Shown here: piece by piece, positions 9,873 through 18,849 of the stretch
Layout: every line of letters starts with the position of its first letter
How positions within the stretch are numbered: the first letter of the stretch is position 1
Assembly (NCBI GenBank): GCA_020718225.1
Contig: DYSO01000009.1
Coordinates: 1-37,846 of the forward strand
Direction: 5' to 3'
From: Draconibacterium orientale
Lineage (GTDB): Bacteria; Bacteroidota; Bacteroidia; Bacteroidales; FEN-979
Length of the DNA stretch: 37,846 nt
Translations under genes and position numbers: made by a program
Notes under the pieces: model-generated
Told to the model about the DNA's origin: nothing
Seen by the model: the letters and a program-made list of their open reading frames with translations, nothing else
The model's database searches: none

Positions 9873-12800
9873 ATGCAGAACAAAGGCGTTATTAAATTTT
9901 TCGCAATCACGTTCATTTTGGTTTGTTTGTTCCAGTTATCGTTTACATTTATCAGTTATCGATACTCCGGTAAAGCCGACAAATATGCGAATTCCCCACA
10001 GGTAAAAGCCTTATCCCAACAAATGGCCCATGGTAATCCCCTGAAAGCGGAATATTTTTATGACTCGATTTCGAAATCACGCCTCGAATATTTCAATGAT
10101 TCGATGGCCAGTATTGATGTATTTAACATCCTGATAAAAAAATATACGCTGAAAGATGTAAAAGAACGGGAAATCAACCTGGGACTTGACCTGAAGGGCG
10201 GTATGAATGTCACAATGGCGGTTTCGGTACCCGATGTTATCAGGGCCCTGTCAGGCAATAACCAAGACCCTGTGTTTACCAAAGCCCTTCAAAAAGCCAT
10301 TGAAAAAGAAAAAACCAGTACCCGTAATTTTGTTGACCTGTTCGCTGAGTCGTTTAAAGAAACCGATCCCAACGCAAAACTGGCCTCCATCTTTAATACT
10401 GTTGAGCTTAAAGATAAAATCAATTATAACTCAACCAACGAAGATGTTATCAAAGTTATCCAGGAAGAAAGCAATGCAGCCATTGACCGCACCTATAAAA
10501 TTCTTACCACCAGAATCGACCGTTTCGGGGTTGTTCAACCAAACATTCAGAAATTACAGACAGCCGGCCGGATCCTGATTGAACTACCCGGTATCAAAGA
10601 CCCCGATCGGGTCCGTAAACTTTTACAGGGAACAGCCCAGCTTGAATTTTGGGAAACATACCAATTCCCAGATCTTCAGCCATTTTTTGGCGAAGCCAAC
10701 AAAAAACTGGTTTCCATCCTTTCAGCAACAACCGATAGTATTCGAACCGACAGCACTCTGAAATCAGATACTGCAGCCACTGCCAAAGCCATCTCTTCCA
10801 AACAGACCTTAGCAGAAAAGAAAGAGATTTCCGATAAAGAGAAATCGAAGGTTACAGCCGATAAATCCACAGTTAAAAAAGATTCTGCCCTGAACGATAC
10901 TTCCAAAGGGAATGCCTTATTGAAACAACTTGGTAAAGATACCTCACAAACCTCGGCCGCTGCCAAACAACAAGAATCATTTGAGGAATATGCCAAACAG
11001 AACCCCTTATTCGCCTATCTGAACCCGGCCATCTACCAGGATAAAAACGGACAATACGTTGCCGGGCAAACTGCCATGGTTGGCCGTTCATTTATTAAAG
11101 ATACCGCCAGGGTCAACCAGATGCTCCGGTTGACAAAAAACCTCTTTCCCAGGGATATGAAACTGGCCTGGACTGTTAAACCTCGTACCGGATCCAACGA
11201 TATCCTGGAACTTGTTGCGTTGAAAGTCACCTCCCGCGATGGTTCGCCTGCCCTTGGCGGCGATGTGATTACGAACGCACGTCAGGACTATGACCAAAAC
11301 GGACGCGTTGAAGTATCCATGTCGATGAATTCTGAAGGGGCCCGCATCTGGAAGCGTCTTACCGGCGATAACATCGGTAAACAAATCGCCATCTTACTCG
11401 ATGGTTATGTTTACAGTTATCCCAACGTCAATAGCGAGATTCCAAACGGTATGTCATCCATCACCGGTGGCAATATGACTGTTGAAGAGGCGCTCGACTT
11501 AGCCAATATTCTTAAAGCCGGGAAACTTCCGGCGCCTGCCCGAATCGTGGCAGAAGAAATTGTTGGGCCCTCCCTCGGTACCGAATCAATCAACGCAGGG
11601 TTGCTCTCGTTTATCATCGCTTTCATCGGTGTATTGCTCTATATGTCGTTGTATTACGGCCGTGCCGGTCATGTTGCCGACATTGCACTGTTTGCCAATG
11701 TCTTTTTCCTGTTTGGCGTTATGGCCTCTATCGGCGCTGTATTAACCCTTCCCGGTATTGCCGGTATTGTGCTGACCCTTGCCATGGCAGTCGACTCGAA
11801 CGTTATCATCTATGAGCGAATGCGGGAAGAAATGCGTGCAGGAAAAGGGATGCGGCTTGTTGTCAAAGACGGGTTCCACCATGCATTGTCAGCCATCATC
11901 GACGGCCACGTCACAACCATTCTTACCGGTATTGTTCTATATATTTTCGGGTCGGGGCCGGTCCAGGGTTTTGCCACAACCCTTGTTATTGGTTTGCTAC
12001 TCTCCCTGTTCTCATCAATCTTTATTGCACGTCTGGTTTTCGAATGGATGCTCGATCATAATATCCCGATCACCACAGGGAATAAATATACCATGAACCT
12101 TTTCCAGCACATCAACATCAATTTTATCGGACTGCGGAAAAAGATGTATATTCTCTCCCTTGTGGTTATTTTTCCCGGTATCATCAGCATTTTTGTACGG
12201 GGCCTTGACCCGGGGCTCGATTTTACCGGTGGACGCAGCTATATTGTCCGTTTCGACCAAAACGTTTCTACTACCGATGTCAGGGAATCGTTGCGTAAAG
12301 TCTTTGGGGAATCCCCGGAAGTAAAAACTTTCGGCCCTAAAAACCAGGTCAAAATCACTACAAAATTTATGATTTCCGAAAAGGATGGAACATCAGATTC
12401 CATTGTCGATACAAAAATGTTTGAAGGGGTAAAATCATTTTACAACAAACCCATTACCTATGCAGAATTTAAATCAAATGACCAGGATAAAATTATCGGC
12501 GAGCTAAGTTCGCAACGGGTCGATCCAACCATCAGCTATGCTTTGATCTGGAAAGCATTTATGGCCGTGATTTTCTCTCTGATTATCATTTTCGTTTATA
12601 TAGCGATCCGTTTTAAAAACTGGCAATTCGGGATCGGAGGCGTCATCGCACTTGCCCACGACTCATTGATCATTCTTACCATGTTTACCTTGCTTCACGG
12701 AATCCTTCCGTTTGGAATGGAGATTGACCAGCATTTTATTGCAGCCTTATTGACAATCATCGGATATTCCATCATGGACACCGTTATCATCTTCGACAGG

Positions 12801-13100
12801 ATCCGTGAATACCGGGCGCTCTATCCTAAACGCGATCTTGCGAATAACATCAATGCGGCCATCAACAGCACCCTGGGCAGAACCATCAACACCTCCGGTG
12901 TGACCCTTGTTGTATTGCTGACGATTTTTATCTTCGGTGGTGAAGTTCTTCGCGGGTTTACTTTTGCACTTATCATCGGAGTAATTTCCGGTACCTACTC
13001 TTCGGTATTCAATGCTACTCCTATCGCATATGATATTTTAATGTGGCAAAAACATCGGAAAGATAAAAAAGAACTGGCCTTAAAAGGAAAGAACAAATAA
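9873..13100 (+). CDS. secDF: Fused protein translocase subunit SecDF
   Basis: 1075-residue inner-membrane protein that uses the proton gradient to pull exported proteins through SecYEG. SecD and SecF are fused, as is usual in Bacteroidota. One N-terminal helix (~8-27) is followed by the P1 periplasmic head with the LDLKGGMNV motif near 105, then the five C-terminal SecD helices (~570-720) including the conserved DSNVIIYERMREE, then the SecF half with its own first helix (~760), DPGLDFTGGRSYIVRF, and a second helix bundle with DTVIIFDRIRE. Between residues ~285 and ~375 there is a Ser/Thr/Lys/Ala-rich low-complexity insert, found between the P1 subregions. It has its own promoter, and the PorE-like gene follows 58 nt later. 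Confidence 0.97.
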   Translation: MQNKGVIKFFAITFILVCLFQLSFTFISYRYSGKADKYANSPQVKALSQQMAHGNPLKAEYFYDSISKSRLEYFNDSMASIDVFNILIKKYTLKDVKEREINLGLDLKGGMNVTMAVSVPDVIRALSGNNQDPVFTKALQKAIEKEKTSTRNFVDLFAESFKETDPNAKLASIFNTVELKDKINYNSTNEDVIKVIQEESNAAIDRTYKILTTRIDRFGVVQPNIQKLQTAGRILIELPGIKDPDRVRKLLQGTAQLEFWETYQFPDLQPFFGEANKKLVSILSATTDSIRTDSTLKSDTAATAKAISSKQTLAEKKEISDKEKSKVTADKSTVKKDSALNDTSKGNALLKQLGKDTSQTSAAAKQQESFEEYAKQNPLFAYLNPAIYQDKNGQYVAGQTAMVGRSFIKDTARVNQMLRLTKNLFPRDMKLAWTVKPRTGSNDILELVALKVTSRDGSPALGGDVITNARQDYDQNGRVEVSMSMNSEGARIWKRLTGDNIGKQIAILLDGYVYSYPNVNSEIPNGMSSITGGNMTVEEALDLANILKAGKLPAPARIVAEEIVGPSLGTESINAGLLSFIIAFIGVLLYMSLYYGRAGHVADIALFANVFFLFGVMASIGAVLTLPGIAGIVLTLAMAVDSNVIIYERMREEMRAGKGMRLVVKDGFHHALSAIIDGHVTTILTGIVLYIFGSGPVQGFATTLVIGLLLSLFSSIFIARLVFEWMLDHNIPITTGNKYTMNLFQHININFIGLRKKMYILSLVVIFPGIISIFVRGLDPGLDFTGGRSYIVRFDQNVSTTDVRESLRKVFGESPEVKTFGPKNQVKITTKFMISEKDGTSDSIVDTKMFEGVKSFYNKPITYAEFKSNDQDKIIGELSSQRVDPTISYALIWKAFMAVIFSLIIIFVYIAIRFKNWQFGIGGVIALAHDSLIILTMFTLLHGILPFGMEIDQHFIAALLTIIGYSIMDTVIIFDRIREYRALYPKRDLANNINAAINSTLGRTINTSGVTLVVLLTIFIFGGEVLRGFTFALIIGVISGTYSSVFNATPIAYDILMWQKHRKDKKELALKGKNK

Positions 13101-13158
13101 GGGAGATACAACTTTTATCCCTCTATTTACGTTAATTCAGCAATCAAATTGCATTGTC

Positions 13159-15609
13159 ATGCGATACTTCGTTCTATTCCTGTTTATCATCACGATATTC
13201 GCCCCTGTCGCTGTTTTCTCCCAGAATAAATATTCAAGGGCAGCAGATGAAGCATATGCCGACCAAATGTTCCTTCTGGCTTTACAGAAATATCAGAAAG
13301 CATATTCAAAAGTCAAAAACAACAAGGCTGAGCGGGAGAGGATATCGTTCCGGATGGCAGAGTGTTACCGGATGATGAACAACACGAAAAAAGCAGAGGC
13401 TGCGTATAAACGGCTGGTCAACAATGCCAGGTATGTGAAGAACGATCCGAAAGTGTTGCTTCTGTATGCCGATATGCTAAAAATCAACGGGAACTATGAG
13501 GAAGCCATCAGGCAATATGAAGCATATAAAGAAAAGGCGCCCAACGATATAAAAGCCGATATCGGGATCGAGACCTCTACCCTGGCTAAAGATTGGATTG
13601 CAAACCCATCCAAATATGATGTTAAATGGGAGAAGGCCCTGAATTCCAAGGAAGATGATTTTGCCCCCGCATATGCCGACAGGAAACTCAAATCCATTGT
13701 CTTCACATCCGATCGCAGCGGTGCAAAAGGAAAAGAGATCGATAACTGGACAGGATTGGGTTTCTCCGATTTTTTCTTTTCCCGCATCGACCAAAAAGGG
13801 GAATGGAGCAAACCGGTACTTGCCGATGCGGAAGGAATGATCAATTCAAAAGCCAATGATGGCGCCGGGCAATTCAATCCAAAATTTTCTTCGTTTTATT
13901 TTACCCGTTGCTGGAATGACCCCAAACGGAAAAATGGTTGCGCTATATTCAAATCAAGCCGAACCGGGAATACGGCCTGGTCAGAACCTGAAATGATCGA
14001 CCTGGGAAGTGATTCGTCAACGGTTATGGGCCACCCAAGCGTAAGTTCCAATGAATCTATTTACTTTTCTGCCGATCTTCCCGGGGGGTTCGGGGGAAAA
14101 GATATCTGGATGGCCAAAAAAGATAAAAAAGGGGGAAAGTACCTTAAACAAAACCTTGGTCCTGAGATTAATACAGCCGGCGATGAACTTTTTCCCTTTA
14201 TCCGTAACGACAGCATCCTCTATTTTGCCTCAAACGGCCTGCCCGGCATGGGTGGCCTGGATATTTTTCAAACCACCAATTCCAACGGACAATGGAGCCG
14301 GCCTGAAAACATGAAATATCCCATCAATACGGCAGCAGACGATTTTGCAATGGTATTTAACCCGGAAGAGCCGGAACAGGGTTTGATGACCTCAAACAGA
14401 CCTGGCGGAAAAGGCCGCGATGACCTCTATTCATTTGTTATCCCACCCGTCTATTTTACCCTCGAAGGAAACATTACCGACGACCGCACCTTACAGCCTG
14501 TTGCCGGGGCGAACGTTCAAATTGTCGGTACCAATGGAAAATCCATCGAAGATAACACCGACGAAAAAGGTCATTATAGCTTTAATAAAATGCAAATCGC
14601 TGCCAATACAACCTATGATATTTTTGTTTCAAAAAAGGATTATTTTAATGAAAAAGGGAAGGAAACAACCGTAGGACTTGAAAAAAGCAAAGACCTGATC
14701 CGGAATTTTGTTCTCCGTCCAATCCCCAAAAAACCGGTTGTGCTTCCCGATATTCTTTACGACCTCGCAAAATGGGACCTGAAACCCCAATACCGTGACT
14801 CCTTACAGGGACTGATTGAGACGCTGGATGCCAATGAAACCATTGTCATTGAACTTGCCTCTCATACCGATACCCGCGATTCTGATGAAAGAAATGATAT
14901 CCTTTCGCAAAAACGCGCTCAAAGTGTTGTTGATTATTTAATATCCAGAGGTATTGACCCCGATCGTCTGGTCGCAAAAGGTTATGGTGAAAGAGTCCCG
15001 CTTGCACTTACAAAAGATATTACAAGAGAAGGATATACCTTTGTTTCAGGAACAATCATTACAGATTCAATGATCAACCTGCTACCCAACCAAGCTGTTA
15101 AAGAAGCGGCCCATCAATTGAACCGCCGGACCGAATTCAGCATCCTGAGAAATGATTTTATCCCAAAAACCACAATAAGTAAAACCATCCCCGCTACCAA
15201 AATAGAAGTTGTTGTCAATCCGGAAGAAAATACCATTGCCGTTGTCAAAACCAAAGAGGGATATCTCCAGGGAACTGCTTTTATTCAGGGAATTACAACT
15301 GATTTCACTTACAACCCCAAAGAGAAAGAGGCATTTATTTCACCGGAAGTGACTTTAAAATTGTTGAAAGAAGGGGTCATTGACAAATCCAGTTTTGAAG
15401 GCGATCCATCAAAAATCATCGGGGAAGGTGAAATTGCAGACAAAGCGGTACTTACCATTCCTGAGGTCCGGGTTGGAAAAAACACCATCAAAGATCTTAA
15501 AGTCACTGTAAACAGGAAAATCCCATCATTTCACTTCGGTGAAAATACACTGAAGAGGTTCGGCTCCTATAATATCGATACCAACAGTGGACTGATTATT
15601 TTTGAATAG
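13159..15609 (+). CDS. PorE-like OmpA-family protein: TPR, PD40 propeller, CRD, OmpA-C, plus degenerate retropepsin-like tail
   Basis: 816 residues. A signal peptide (residues 1-21, ending VFSQ) is followed by TPR-like helices (~25-135), a WD40/PD40 beta-propeller (~150-430, repeats such as YFASNGLPGMGGLDIF), a carboxypeptidase-regulatory-like domain (~432-525, LEGNITDDRTLQPVAGANVQI), and an OmpA-C peptidoglycan-binding domain (~527-660) with NDILSQKRAQSV. This order is that of PorE (PG1058) of the type IX secretion system, so a periplasmic role tethering to peptidoglycan is likely; many paralogues share it. Residues ~680-816 form an extra domain whose ISPEVTLKLLKEG, IPEVRVGKNTIKDL and FHFGENTLKRFGSYNID segments resemble Bacteroidota retropepsin-like proteases, but the DTGAS position reads NPKEK (Asn719), so it should be inactive. 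purM begins 6 nt after the stop. Confidence 0.88.
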   Translation: MRYFVLFLFIITIFAPVAVFSQNKYSRAADEAYADQMFLLALQKYQKAYSKVKNNKAERERISFRMAECYRMMNNTKKAEAAYKRLVNNARYVKNDPKVLLLYADMLKINGNYEEAIRQYEAYKEKAPNDIKADIGIETSTLAKDWIANPSKYDVKWEKALNSKEDDFAPAYADRKLKSIVFTSDRSGAKGKEIDNWTGLGFSDFFFSRIDQKGEWSKPVLADAEGMINSKANDGAGQFNPKFSSFYFTRCWNDPKRKNGCAIFKSSRTGNTAWSEPEMIDLGSDSSTVMGHPSVSSNESIYFSADLPGGFGGKDIWMAKKDKKGGKYLKQNLGPEINTAGDELFPFIRNDSILYFASNGLPGMGGLDIFQTTNSNGQWSRPENMKYPINTAADDFAMVFNPEEPEQGLMTSNRPGGKGRDDLYSFVIPPVYFTLEGNITDDRTLQPVAGANVQIVGTNGKSIEDNTDEKGHYSFNKMQIAANTTYDIFVSKKDYFNEKGKETTVGLEKSKDLIRNFVLRPIPKKPVVLPDILYDLAKWDLKPQYRDSLQGLIETLDANETIVIELASHTDTRDSDERNDILSQKRAQSVVDYLISRGIDPDRLVAKGYGERVPLALTKDITREGYTFVSGTIITDSMINLLPNQAVKEAAHQLNRRTEFSILRNDFIPKTTISKTIPATKIEVVVNPEENTIAVVKTKEGYLQGTAFIQGITTDFTYNPKEKEAFISPEVTLKLLKEGVIDKSSFEGDPSKIIGEGEIADKAVLTIPEVRVGKNTIKDLKVTVNRKIPSFHFGENTLKRFGSYNIDTNSGLIIFE

Positions 15610-15615
15610 GTAGCC

Positions 15616-16785
15616 ATGAACGGTTCCTCCCGATATGAACAACGCGGTGTTTCTGCTTCAAAGGAAGAGGTGCATGCTGCCATTCGCAACCTCGGCGGAG
15701 GCCTCTATCCAAAAGCTTTTTGCAAAATAATTCCCGACATCCTGAGTGGTGACCCATTGTGGTGTAACATCATGCATGCCGATGGTGCAGGCACCAAATC
15801 GGCGCTCGCTTACCTTTACTGGAAAGAGACGGGCGACCTTTCTGTCTGGCGTGGTATCGCCCGGGATGCTATTGTCATGAACTTAGATGACCTTCTTTGT
15901 ATCGGTGCCACCAACAATATCCTCCTTTCGTCCACCATCGGGCGGAATAAAACCTTAATCCCGGGTACCATCATCTCTGAAATTATTCAAGGTACGGAAG
16001 CATTTCTGGAAGAGATGAGACAACACGGTATCGGGATATGGTCAACAGGCGGTGAAACTGCCGATGTTGGCGATCTGGTCAGAACCATTATCGTCGATTC
16101 AACCGTTACCTGCCGGATGCAACGCAACGATGTGATAAACAATGCAAACATCCGGGCAGGGGACGTCGTTGTGGGGTTGTCTTCATTCGGTCAGGCAAGC
16201 TATGAAAACGAGTATAACGGAGGGATGGGCAGTAACGGGCTGACCTCTGCCCGACATGACGTTTTCAATAGCAAATATGCCCGGCTTTTTCCTGAAACCT
16301 TTGACGGGAATATACCTCACGGACTAATCTATTCCGGCACACGGAGCCTTACCGATCCTTCTGATATTCCCGCGATGACCCTTGGGAAACTAATCCTCTC
16401 CCCTACCCGGACCTATGCGCCGGTTGCGCTCAAAATGTTTGACTGTTGCCGTGCCGAAATCCACGGTATGGTTCATTGCACCGGCGGCGGGCAAACAAAA
16501 ATAACCCATTTCATCGACCGCCTCCATGTTATAAAAGACAATCTTTTTCCAGTACCCCCCTTGTTCAGGTTAATCCAGGGTGAATCCGGCACCCCGTGGC
16601 AAGAGATGTACAAAGTGTTTAACATGGGCCACAGGATGGAACTTTATGTCCCTGAAAAAATTGCCCCAACCCTGATTGACATTTCAGGGGAATTCAACAT
16701 CGAGGCGCGGATTATTGGTCGCTGTGAGGCATACCACAAGCCAAAACTTACCATTCAGTCGACCTTCGGAACATTCCAATACTGA
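15616..16785 (+). CDS. purM: Phosphoribosylformylglycinamidine cyclo-ligase (AIR synthase) PurM
   Basis: ATP-dependent ring closure of FGAM to aminoimidazole ribonucleotide, fifth step of purine synthesis, in the cytoplasm. 389 residues, the length usual for Bacteroidota PurM and somewhat longer than the E. coli enzyme (345). Visible motifs: the DGAGTKSALA nucleotide and metal loop near residue 56, ARDAIVMNLDDLLCIGA around 87, STGGETADVGDLVRT around 144, GLSSFGQAS near 191, and HCTGGGQTKI near 291. The start is the ATG at 15616, 6 nt after the PorE-like gene, so the two may share a transcript although their functions are unrelated. A short GATTTAC repeat array begins 10 nt after the stop. Confidence 0.93.
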   Translation: MNGSSRYEQRGVSASKEEVHAAIRNLGGGLYPKAFCKIIPDILSGDPLWCNIMHADGAGTKSALAYLYWKETGDLSVWRGIARDAIVMNLDDLLCIGATNNILLSSTIGRNKTLIPGTIISEIIQGTEAFLEEMRQHGIGIWSTGGETADVGDLVRTIIVDSTVTCRMQRNDVINNANIRAGDVVVGLSSFGQASYENEYNGGMGSNGLTSARHDVFNSKYARLFPETFDGNIPHGLIYSGTRSLTDPSDIPAMTLGKLILSPTRTYAPVALKMFDCCRAEIHGMVHCTGGGQTKITHFIDRLHVIKDNLFPVPPLFRLIQGESGTPWQEMYKVFNMGHRMELYVPEKIAPTLIDISGEFNIEARIIGRCEAYHKPKLTIQSTFGTFQY

Positions 16786-16795
16786 AAGGAGACAG

Positions 16796-16821
16796 GATTT
16801 ACGATTTACGATTTACAATTT
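16796..16821 (+). repeat. Short 7-bp tandem array (unit ACGATTT), array A
   Basis: GATTT followed by ACGATTT, ACGATTT and a variant ACAATTT: about 3.7 units. It lies between purM and prfA, in the same orientation as the two other arrays (17925-17959 and 23931-24035). Confidence 0.9.
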
Positions 16822-16823
16822 CT

Positions 16824-16831
16824 TATTTTTG
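16824..16831 (+). promoter_or_regulatory. Candidate -7 box before prfA
   Basis: TATTTTTG matches TAnnTTTG and ends 21 nt before the prfA ATG, directly after the short repeat array. The surroundings are T-rich and no -33 TTG is visible, so this may be chance. Confidence 0.35.
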
Positions 16832-16852
16832 TTCTTTCATTGACCGAACCCT

Positions 16853-17926
16853 ATGTTAGATAAACTCGAAGCTATAAAACTCAAGTACGAGGACCTTCAG
16901 GTCCAGATGAACGACCCGTCGGTAATGACTGATATGAAGCGTTACATCAGGCTTAATAAAGATTATAAAGAGCTGCTGCCCATCATGGAAGCGTTTGAAA
17001 TTTACAAGCACATCCTGGCAAATATTGACAATGCAAAGGAGATCATCCACAATGAAAAGGATGAGGAATTCCGTAATATGGCAAAGGAAGAGTTGAATGG
17101 CTTTATAACTGAAAAAGAGAGGATTGAAGAGGAAATCCGGATGATGCTGATCCCCGCTGATCCGGAAGATGAAAAAAATGCAGTGGTCGAAATCCGTGCA
17201 GGGACCGGTGGCGATGAAGCCAGTATATTTGCCGGGGACCTCTTCCGGATGTACAGTAAATTTTGTGAAACAAAACGGTGGAAGATCGACCTTGTTGATT
17301 TCACAGAAGGGACGATGGGCGGTTTCAAGGAAATTATTTTCAATGTTACCGGGGATCATGTTTATGGCTTATTAAAATATGAATCGGGTGTTCACCGCGT
17401 ACAACGTGTACCTCAAACCGAAACCCAGGGACGGGTGCATACTTCAGCCGCCACCGTTGCCATTTTACCGGAAGCCGATGAATTCGATGTAGAGATTAAA
17501 CCGGCAGATGTGCGTAAGGATACTTTTTGTTCTTCCGGACCGGGCGGCCAATCTGTCAATACTACCTATTCCGCCATACGTCTGACGCATATCCCTTCTG
17601 GCATTGTTGTCTCCTGTCAGGATGAAAAATCACAGATCAAAAATTTTGACAAAGCAATGAAGGTTTTGCGCACACGATTATATGAACTGGAACATCAGAA
17701 ATATCTGGATGAAATCTCGAAAAAACGCAAGACCATGGTTTCAACAGGGGATCGTTCCGCGAAAATCCGTACTTACAATTACCCGCAGAGCAGGGTGACC
17801 GATCATCGAATCAATATGACGCTTTATAATTTACCGGTAGTTTTGGATGGCGAAGTACAACCCCTGATTGAGGCCCTGCAGTTAGCTGAAAATGCAGAAC
17901 GGTTGAAAGAGATGGGGAATAATTGA
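16853..17926 (+). CDS. prfA: Peptide chain release factor 1 (RF1)
   Basis: 357 residues. RF1 recognises UAA and UAG in the ribosomal A site and triggers peptidyl-tRNA hydrolysis. The catalytic GGQ is at residues 231-233 ([10 protein letters not shown]). The codon-recognition PxT motif reads PQT at 187-189 (RVPQTET) where E. coli has PAT, a normal variation for RF1; RF2 would have SPF there, so the assignment to RF1 is clear. The N-terminal helical domain (~1-110) and the acidic [15 protein letters not shown] segment near 118 are intact. The TGA stop codon (17924-17926) is itself the first bases of a five-unit GATTTAC array, and another array precedes the gene, so prfA is bracketed by same-orientation repeats. 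Confidence 0.97.
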
Positions 17927-17959
17927 TTTACGATTTACGATTTACGATTTACGATTTAC
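17925..17959 (+). repeat. 7-bp tandem array of five perfect GATTTAC units, array B
   Basis: Five perfect copies of GATTTAC in a row. The first copy starts on the second base of the prfA stop codon, so gene and array share sequence. pyrF begins 41 nt after the array. Confidence 0.95.
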
Positions 17960-18000
17960 CCATGACCAATGATTAAATCCTGATACTTATTATTTTTTCT

Positions 18001-18849
18001 ATGAACCGTTCGGCGCTGATCCGTCTTATTTTTGAAAAAAAGTCCTTTTTATGTATTGGTTTGGATCCCGATTTATCAAAAATACCCGAGCACCTGCTCC
18101 AGGAGGAGGATCCCATATTTAGCTTTAATAAGCAAATTATTGATTCAACCCATGATCTGGCAATTGCTTACAAACCCAATTTTGCATTTTACGAAAGTGA
18201 AGGTGTCCGGGGTTGGAATAGTCTGGCCAAAACCATTCAGTATATTAACAGGAGTTATTCCGGAACGGTATTTTCAATTGCCGATGCAAAGCGTGGAGAT
18301 ATCGGAAATACATCCGGGCAATATGCCAGGGCTGTGTTTGATCCGGAATCGTCGGGGATGAATTTTGATGCGGTAACCGTTGCGCCTTACATGGGAGAAG
18401 ATTCCGTTAATCCCTTCCTTTCCTATCCTGAGAAGTGGATCATCGTTCTGGCGCTGACATCAAACAAAGGAGCCGCTGATTTTCAGTTTTTCGGTGATGG
18501 TTCGCACCGGCTTTTCGAACAGGTCCTTATGAAGTCGAAGGGATGGGGAAGCAATGAAAACATGATGTACGTGGTAGGCGCCACAAAGGCTGAGATGCTT
18601 GCTGATGTCCGCAAAATAGTGCCCGGTCATTTCCTGCTTGTTCCCGGTGTTGGGGCCCAGGGCGGAAGCCTACGGGAAGTGGCTAAATATGGATTAACCA
18701 AAGAGTGCGGGCTAATCGTCAATTCCTCCAGAAACATCATTTATGCTTCGCCGGGAGTTGATTTCGCTGATAAAGCAAGGGAGGAGGCTGGGAAAATTCA
18801 ACAAGAGATGCAATTGATTCTTGAAAACAGAGGTTTTAATCCACAATAG
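18001..18849 (+). CDS. pyrF: Orotidine 5'-phosphate decarboxylase PyrF
   Basis: Last step of de novo UMP synthesis: decarboxylates OMP. 282 residues, the longer subgroup of the family (E. coli about 245). N-terminal [15 protein letters not shown] carries the substrate-binding Asp; the catalytic Asp/Lys motif is [19 protein letters not shown] near residues 93-109, diagnostic of this subgroup; the phosphate-binding region includes [13 protein letters not shown] near 218 and [12 protein letters not shown] near 240. The ATG at 18001 is the only sensible start before [15 protein letters not shown]. Its last 14 nt overlap the end of ilvE on the opposite strand. No promoter was recognised between prfA and pyrF, so cotranscription is possible. 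Confidence 0.96.

Follow-up and report, generated by a model that had tools for sequence, protein, structure and literature searches.

The PorE-type protein encoded in the window, by which we mean the whole stretch of 37,846 nucleotides of Draconibacterium orientale DNA that was analysed, ends in a domain (residues ~691 to 816) that we consider, with somewhat better than even confidence, to be a fixed pseudo-retropepsin serving as a noncatalytic association module next to the peptidoglycan-binding domain; its role is probably that of a connector, not of an enzyme. PorE and bacterial retropepsins were both known already, and what appears to be new is that a pseudo-retropepsin has become a fixed fifth domain in PorE: the earlier note on this DNA knew of no PorE-type protein with such a tail, and we likewise found no description of one in the literature searched, which consisted mostly of open-access papers. 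C-terminal extensions of PorE homologues are mentioned in section 6 of PMC5053529, with the data not shown and no domain named in that section. A domain of recognizable fold next to a peptidoglycan-binding domain in many families offers a handle on whether PorE acts alone or paired, and it clearly exemplifies a bacterial retropepsin that became a pseudoenzyme, with DTG-bearing relatives available for comparison in some of the same genomes.

Domain composition and secretion context

Pfam recognized TPR, PD40, CarboxypepD_reg, and OmpA domains in the window protein (CarboxypepD_reg at 31.5 bits, slightly below the Pfam cutoff of 32.3), and Pfam and NCBIfam together give the order of TPR, beta-propeller, CRD, and OmpA_C domains that is also that of Porphyromonas gingivalis PorE (PG1058, NF052230). 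The NCBIfam model T9SS_PorE spans residues 10 to 664 with a score of 580.2 bits, and because this lies below the cutoff of 600, we call the protein PorE-type; the cutoff was reached by a tailed relative (L084, 611.6) and by a tail-less one (L209, 672.6), and the tailed paralogue L038 scored 517.2 bits, below it. Residues beyond ~690 fall outside this model, and the fusion of the tail to a PorE-type protein, as the earlier note had described it, is borne out (Table 1).

Table 1. Positions, in window coordinates, of the PorE-type gene and of the parts of its product
Feature	Coordinates	Strand	Extent and basis
PorE-type gene with fifth domain	13159..15609	+	816 aa plus stop; open frame
OmpA_C-like peptidoglycan-binding domain	14743..15147	+	Residues 529-663; phmmer to 6top, E 2.4e-23
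Low-confidence linker, OmpA domain to tail	15178..15216	+	Residues 674-686; AF2 pLDDT <50, model residues 27-39
Putative pseudo-retropepsin domain	15229..15606	+	Residues 691-816; sequence kinship and AF2 model
Position of the protease D[TS]G triplet; Asn719-Pro720-Lys721 in the window protein	15313..15321	+	Alignment to DTG relatives
GVIDKSSFEGD, family pattern GxIxKxDFxGD	15373..15405	+	Residues 739-749; conservation score
Counterpart of protease LLLGQSxLxxFGxxxID	15529..15579	+	Residues 791-807; retains Gly794, the helix, and the FG/ID landmarks

In the alignment with 6top, Asp571, Asn579, and Arg586 of the window protein share columns with Asp576, Asn584, and Arg591 of P. gingivalis PorE, three peptidoglycan-contacting side chains that are common to both proteins (residue numbers counted by hand on that alignment; ligand residues as given in section 6 of PMC7192894). 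The OmpA_C domain comes last in P. gingivalis PorE (residues 534 to 668, according to PMC7192894), whereas the window protein is ~150 residues longer. P. gingivalis PorE is, in addition, a lipoprotein, whereas the N terminus of the window protein (MRYFVLFLFIITIFAPVAVFSQNKY) has, as judged by eye, a signal peptide without the lipobox Cys; PorE homologues of F. johnsoniae are likewise not predicted to be lipoproteins (PMC7192894, section 7).

PorE of P. gingivalis is described as a periplasmic component of the type IX secretion system (T9SS) that binds a fragment of peptidoglycan through its OmpA domain (PMC7192894) and that is needed for type IX secretion (PMC5053529). It binds PorP and, via PorP, a type B CTD protein, and PorK and PorN were detected alongside it in small quantities (PMC9143113); it has also been proposed as the anchor of the T9SS to the wall (PMC7192894, PMC9143113). 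The genome of the window contains GldN/PorN over its cutoff and the PorP family over its cutoff at four whole loci and one in pieces; among 67 hand-picked genomes, gldN/porN was found in all 52 with a tailed PorE and in 12 of the 15 with a tail-less one. The neighbors of the window gene (positions 9873 to 18849) are housekeeping genes, with secDF before it and an AIR-synthase-like gene, prfA, and pyrF after it. The same genome holds a tail-less PorE-like gene split across two frames (L043:1292-5500, G000:C107), and the PorP-family gene behind it is likewise interrupted; the breaks at L043 reflect either decay or an assembly error.

Sequence kinship and predicted fold of the tail

Taken alone, the window tail matched nothing in Pfam or NCBIfam at E values of up to 10 and returned a single row, at chance level (E, 1.4), from the sequences of the PDB. 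It does match two short DTG/DSG proteins of genome G032 directly (E, 1.4e-6 and 1.4e-5), which carry FIFDTGASLISIS and FILDSGASEVNIS, and the comparison of 108 PorE tails with 11 DTG/DSG domains by hhalign gave 99.9% and an E value of 1.5e-31 over 128 columns, a value that applies to that single profile-profile comparison. At the lax threshold of E<=1, PF13975 was found in 68 of the 108 tails (best, 2.9e-6) and PF13650 in 31, and both were found in all 11 of the DTG/DSG domains; when the tail profile was run against the PDB, the best sequence-profile match was the retropepsin-like protease of Rickettsia conorii (E, 8e-4). Kinship to the retropepsin-like proteases of the Bacteroidota, which had been proposed from the letters of this DNA, is upheld by these matches, and the stretches quoted with the proposal are in place: FTYNPKEKEAFIS at residues 716 to 728, ISPEVTLKLLKEGVI at 727 to 741, IPEVRVGKNTIKDLKVTV at 767 to 784, and FHFGENTLKRFGSYNID at 791 to 807. 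The tail shares its framework and the order of its secondary structure with the Bacteroidota clan AA proteases (PF13975; L036, L121, and L126), with NG, IS, DxxG, Gly-helix, and FGxxxID as common landmarks, but a D[TS]G triplet and, by prediction, a flap hairpin are features of the proteases and not of the tail. The proteases that we read stand alone, follow TPR repeats, or end long proteins other than PorE, and their nearest NCBIfam model, TIGR02281, matches below its cutoff.

An AF2 monomer model of the window tail, computed from an alignment of PorE tails alone, without any DTG protein, had a mean pLDDT of 78.8, with blocks of 78 to 91 across the tail. Foldseek matched it in the PDB to 5c9f, 5c9b, and 5c9d (E from 1.9e-8) and then to Ddi1, and the best 50 rows were all aspartic proteases, two of them plasmepsins, or, once, a "putative endopeptidase"; the first match is moderate, with a TM-score of 0.54 by query and 0.70 by target and an rmsd of 4.6. 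The DTG relative L036, modeled as a control, gave the same top matches (E, 1.1e-9; TM-score by query, 0.67), its nine first rows all being chains of 5c9b, 5c9d, or 5c9f. By prediction, then, the tail adopts the retropepsin barrel, and this agreement in fold, together with the clan AA profile matches, is the opposite of the two outcomes that the earlier note had named as fatal to its proposal. The two monomer predictions part company at the flap: the L036 model has long strands (81 to 88 and 94 to 107) at the expected position, whereas the same stretch of the window model is mostly coil, with one short helix and only short counterparts of these strands, and a flap hairpin is predicted in L036 and not in the tail.

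The R. conorii protease (5c9b/5c9d/5c9f), the best structural match to the modeled tail, differs from it in being an active DTG enzyme of another architecture, and APRc, as it is called, has been reported to be a dimer by cross-linking (PMC4140852). Pseudomonas RloA is, like the tail, an exported bacterial retropepsin fold; it is secreted and is dimeric in the crystal and in solution (SEC-MALS), and a link to peptidoglycan homeostasis is offered as speculation by its authors (PMC12239564). RloA enzymes keep DTG, unlike the tail, and ties to OmpA or PorE were not encountered in the available parts of that paper.

Loss of the catalytic triplet and history of the tail

Of 169 distinct domain sequences, 153 are PorE tails, 14 have D[TS]G and belong to proteins other than PorE, and 2 are neither. 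D[TS]G is found in none of the 153 tails, either at the site of the triplet or elsewhere within the matched stretches, and in none of the 16 PorE tails (some of them repeats) listed in a second reading, in which the D[TS]G copies were again all non-PorE; the search for homologues that retain the triplet, which the earlier note had suggested, has turned up copies only in architectures other than PorE. In the window, the position of the catalytic Asp is held by Asn719 and Thr-Gly is gone, as had been claimed. Across the 153 tails, the column reads D in 97, N in 15, S in 11, E in 8, G in 7, and other residues in 15, Asp being missing from the window and from 55 others; Gly occupies the third position of the triplet in eight tails, never after D plus T/S. 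Judging from the alignment, the change of the triplet is clade-wide and the loss of Thr/Ser-Gly is fixed, whereas Asn719 is a local detail, since Asp is still the commonest residue there. Because D[TS]G is missing, we would not file the window tail among the clan AA proteases. Degenerate domains also occur outside PorE, in L135 (DTL) and L270 (DTT). The latter, part of a short protein that matches TPR weakly (L270:3-920, plus strand, G285:C33), lies ~1.7 kb before an intact TPR-retropepsin on the same contig (L120:630-2672, plus strand) and is, going by its triplet, a second case of inactivation.

Conservation was expressed in bits per column over ten segments of 163 tails and of 25 DTG/DSG domains; the 163 rows are the 153 plus ten strings from the second reading (nine new loci and one probable differently aligned repeat), and merging was limited to identical aligned strings, with near-copies of one species from two collections possibly remaining. 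The terminal strands are conserved in tails about as in DTG/DSG domains (N-terminal strand, 1.46 versus 1.50 bits; C-terminal strands, 1.77 versus 1.80), whereas the catalytic loop stands at 0.88 versus 2.72 bits; 25 tails drawn at random gave a mean of 1.19 bits for this loop (0.98 to 1.66). Cleft and platform do not separate cleanly, because the two core strands ahead of the catalytic loop (second strand, 1.56 versus 2.14; third strand, 1.29 versus 1.90) and the part comprising the hydrophobic-hydrophobic-Gly (hhG) motif plus helix (1.50 versus 2.35) are also less conserved in tails and the flap region barely so (1.55 versus 1.76). Values were 1.50 versus 1.93 for IS plus helix and 1.60 versus 1.87 for the hairpin. 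Gly794 is weighted 0.70 in tails and 1.00 in DTG/DSG domains, and the window has His792-Phe793 ahead of it rather than two hydrophobic residues. The GxIxKxDFxGD block, with 2.06 bits in tails versus 1.78 in DTG/DSG domains, ranks first in conservation among the ten tail segments, with Phe746 weighted 0.97.

Within the window's family, 42 of 43 genomes matched the tail at E<=0.01, the main tails being read in 40 of these 42 (all except G006 and G041). Among 247 genomes drawn from the order, matches at E<=0.001 came from 118; going by the rows listed, the PorE tail proper is present in ~70 of the 247, and the other matches are to the OmpA-domain end or to other proteins. A profile of 108 tails matched 9 of 395 genomes of the phylum, these including the window's own and four retropepsin-like domains of other architecture, and the remaining four matches span at most the first 74 of 166 profile positions. 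Tailed PorE was found in 36 family codes of the order, and tail-less PorE occurs in other families of the order, most of those read ending 5 to 45 residues past the OmpA motif and five being longer (65 to 108). At least 68 named loci were found through a single peptide pattern from the end of the OmpA domain and are PorE by construction; their titles, among the matches listed, name Bacteroidales, Bacteroidetes, and, several times, Lentimicrobiaceae. No PorE with DTG was seen among these loci or in overlapping draws of 43 family, 247 and 393 order, and 395 phylum genomes. The draw of 393 used a DTG profile, with 30 located matches and 12 further regions among the matches listed, and genomes in it whose tails stayed unread could hold an exception. 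DTG relatives share a genome with tailed PorE in some cases (e.g., G032, G045, G115, and G271). L119 and L274, tail fragments without the OmpA end, were excluded.

In a tree of 60 PorE tails and 15 other domains, the tails lie on one side of a branch with an SH-aLRT of 99.2 (a quick search with 60 of the 153 tails and 120 columns, the catalytic columns excluded). On a tree of the PorE body, built from 91 hand-picked rows of which 56 were labeled tailed, the tail label needs 5 changes versus 28.1 in shuffles, one of the 5 being L151, mislabeled "none," and rows without a tail are placed within or next to the tailed clade. This history fits one gain and few losses, with the proviso that counts of changes cannot tell gain from loss. 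At L151:977-2981, the frame is broken within the tail and the preceding frame is open. Among the matches listed, secDF, PorE, the AIR-synthase gene, prfA, and pyrF were all seen in 17 of 59 tailed named loci (in one of them PorE has two frames), and 4 of 9 tail-less loci show PorE together with the AIR-synthase gene, prfA, and pyrF, counts in which many loci are truncated. The tailed PorE gene occupies the same place as the tail-less one, in a gene order that distant relatives of both kinds retain.

The tail is the fastest evolving of the five domains, with a median identity to the window of 34.4% (151 rows), compared with 39.8% for TPR (92 rows), 51.3% for the propeller (147 rows), and 50.0% and 69.2% for CRD and OmpA (151 rows each), and because it is the least conserved, it may be a tolerated appendage. 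Among 40 listed of the 154 pairs with tails >72% identical, dN/dS was 0.018 to 0.121 in the 27 with a finite dS, many of them near saturation. A recent pseudogene or frame error is ruled out by the open frames of relatives, the low dN/dS, and the presence of the tail in nearly all genomes of the family.

Possible roles of the tail

We suggest that the catalytic triplet of a retropepsin-fold domain and, by prediction, also its flap were gone by the time the tailed lineages diverged, since the tails form one clade and none of those read has D[TS]G, and that the domain was retained as the fifth, C-terminal domain of a PorE-type protein. Without catalysis, it would be a protein association module that a short, flexible linker joins to the peptidoglycan-binding domain before it, a role to which it seems better suited than to binding and cutting peptides because its terminal strands are conserved, its catalytic loop has decayed, and a flap is not predicted. 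Retropepsins pair partly via a platform of terminal strands. As it is these strands that are conserved here while the catalytic loop decayed, the likeliest partner would be a second copy of the tail, and two PorE molecules could be tied together at the wall, under the secretion ring. We would rank self-association of PorE at the wall first and the binding of a peptide or partner in or near the old cleft second. The fuller account, that the T9SS peptidoglycan anchor acquired a retropepsin on one occasion and that this domain was inactivated to become a dimer clamp that pairs PorE at the wall, is put forward tentatively, as an idea that falls short of even likelihood; if it is true, the secretion machine stands on paired anchors in a large part of the Bacteroidales. 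Weighing against the association module that we prefer are the low conservation of the tail, the blurred contrast of cleft and platform, the moderate TM-scores, the retention of Asp719 in nearly two-thirds of the tails, which would be more than a dead site needs, the functioning of P. gingivalis PorE without a tail (PMC5053529), and the occurrence of tail-less PorE elsewhere in the order.

That same retention of Asp719 is among the reasons for considering that the cleft of the pseudo-protease still holds a peptide without cutting it, with T9SS clients, PorP or PorK/N loops, and stem peptides of the wall as examples. By Foldseek, the tail has the fold of an enzyme that binds peptides, the flap region is nearly as conserved as in the DTG/DSG domains, and the GxIxKxDFxGD block could make a new surface; however, decay has gone furthest in the catalytic loop that forms the lining of the cleft, and the flap hairpin is not predicted, and we regard this explanation as possible but on the unlikely side. 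To go further and see in the tail an active peptidase with an unusual site, built on Asp719 or on another residue, has in its favor that Asp is the commonest residue of its column, and it is made very improbable by the lack of D[TS]G at the triplet or elsewhere in the matched stretches of any tail read, by the lack of Asp in the window and more than a third of the tails, and by the lack of a predicted flap.

A domain that evolves faster than its four companions, that may at times be lost, as suggested by the tail-less rows inside or beside the tailed clade, and whose frame is broken in L151 might instead be left over from a gene fusion, passive and without a role today; its near-universal presence in the family, its spread over 36 family codes, and its low dN/dS in 27 pairs make this improbable to us. 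That the retropepsin match is a chance likeness of a small, beta-rich domain, a suspicion raised by the failure of the window tail alone to match Pfam, NCBIfam, or PDB sequences, is barely conceivable, chance similarity being ruled out by the direct matches, the hhalign and PF13975 results, and the fold match.

Some genomes hold further PorE copies. L038:247-2692 (plus strand, G026:C50) encodes a second, diverged tailed PorE whose tail is 30% identical to that of the window, and the frame after it resembles, by eye, the PorP/SprF family; L104 (G088) and L117 (G197) are likewise second, diverged PorE copies with the tail present. An 814-aa PorE-type protein (L129:1803-4247, minus strand, G237:C59) has a different C-terminal extension, whose reading by eye as SPOR was unsupported by Pfam at E<=0.01; PorE may accept alternative end modules, and the genome that encodes this protein holds a tailed PorE (L096) too.
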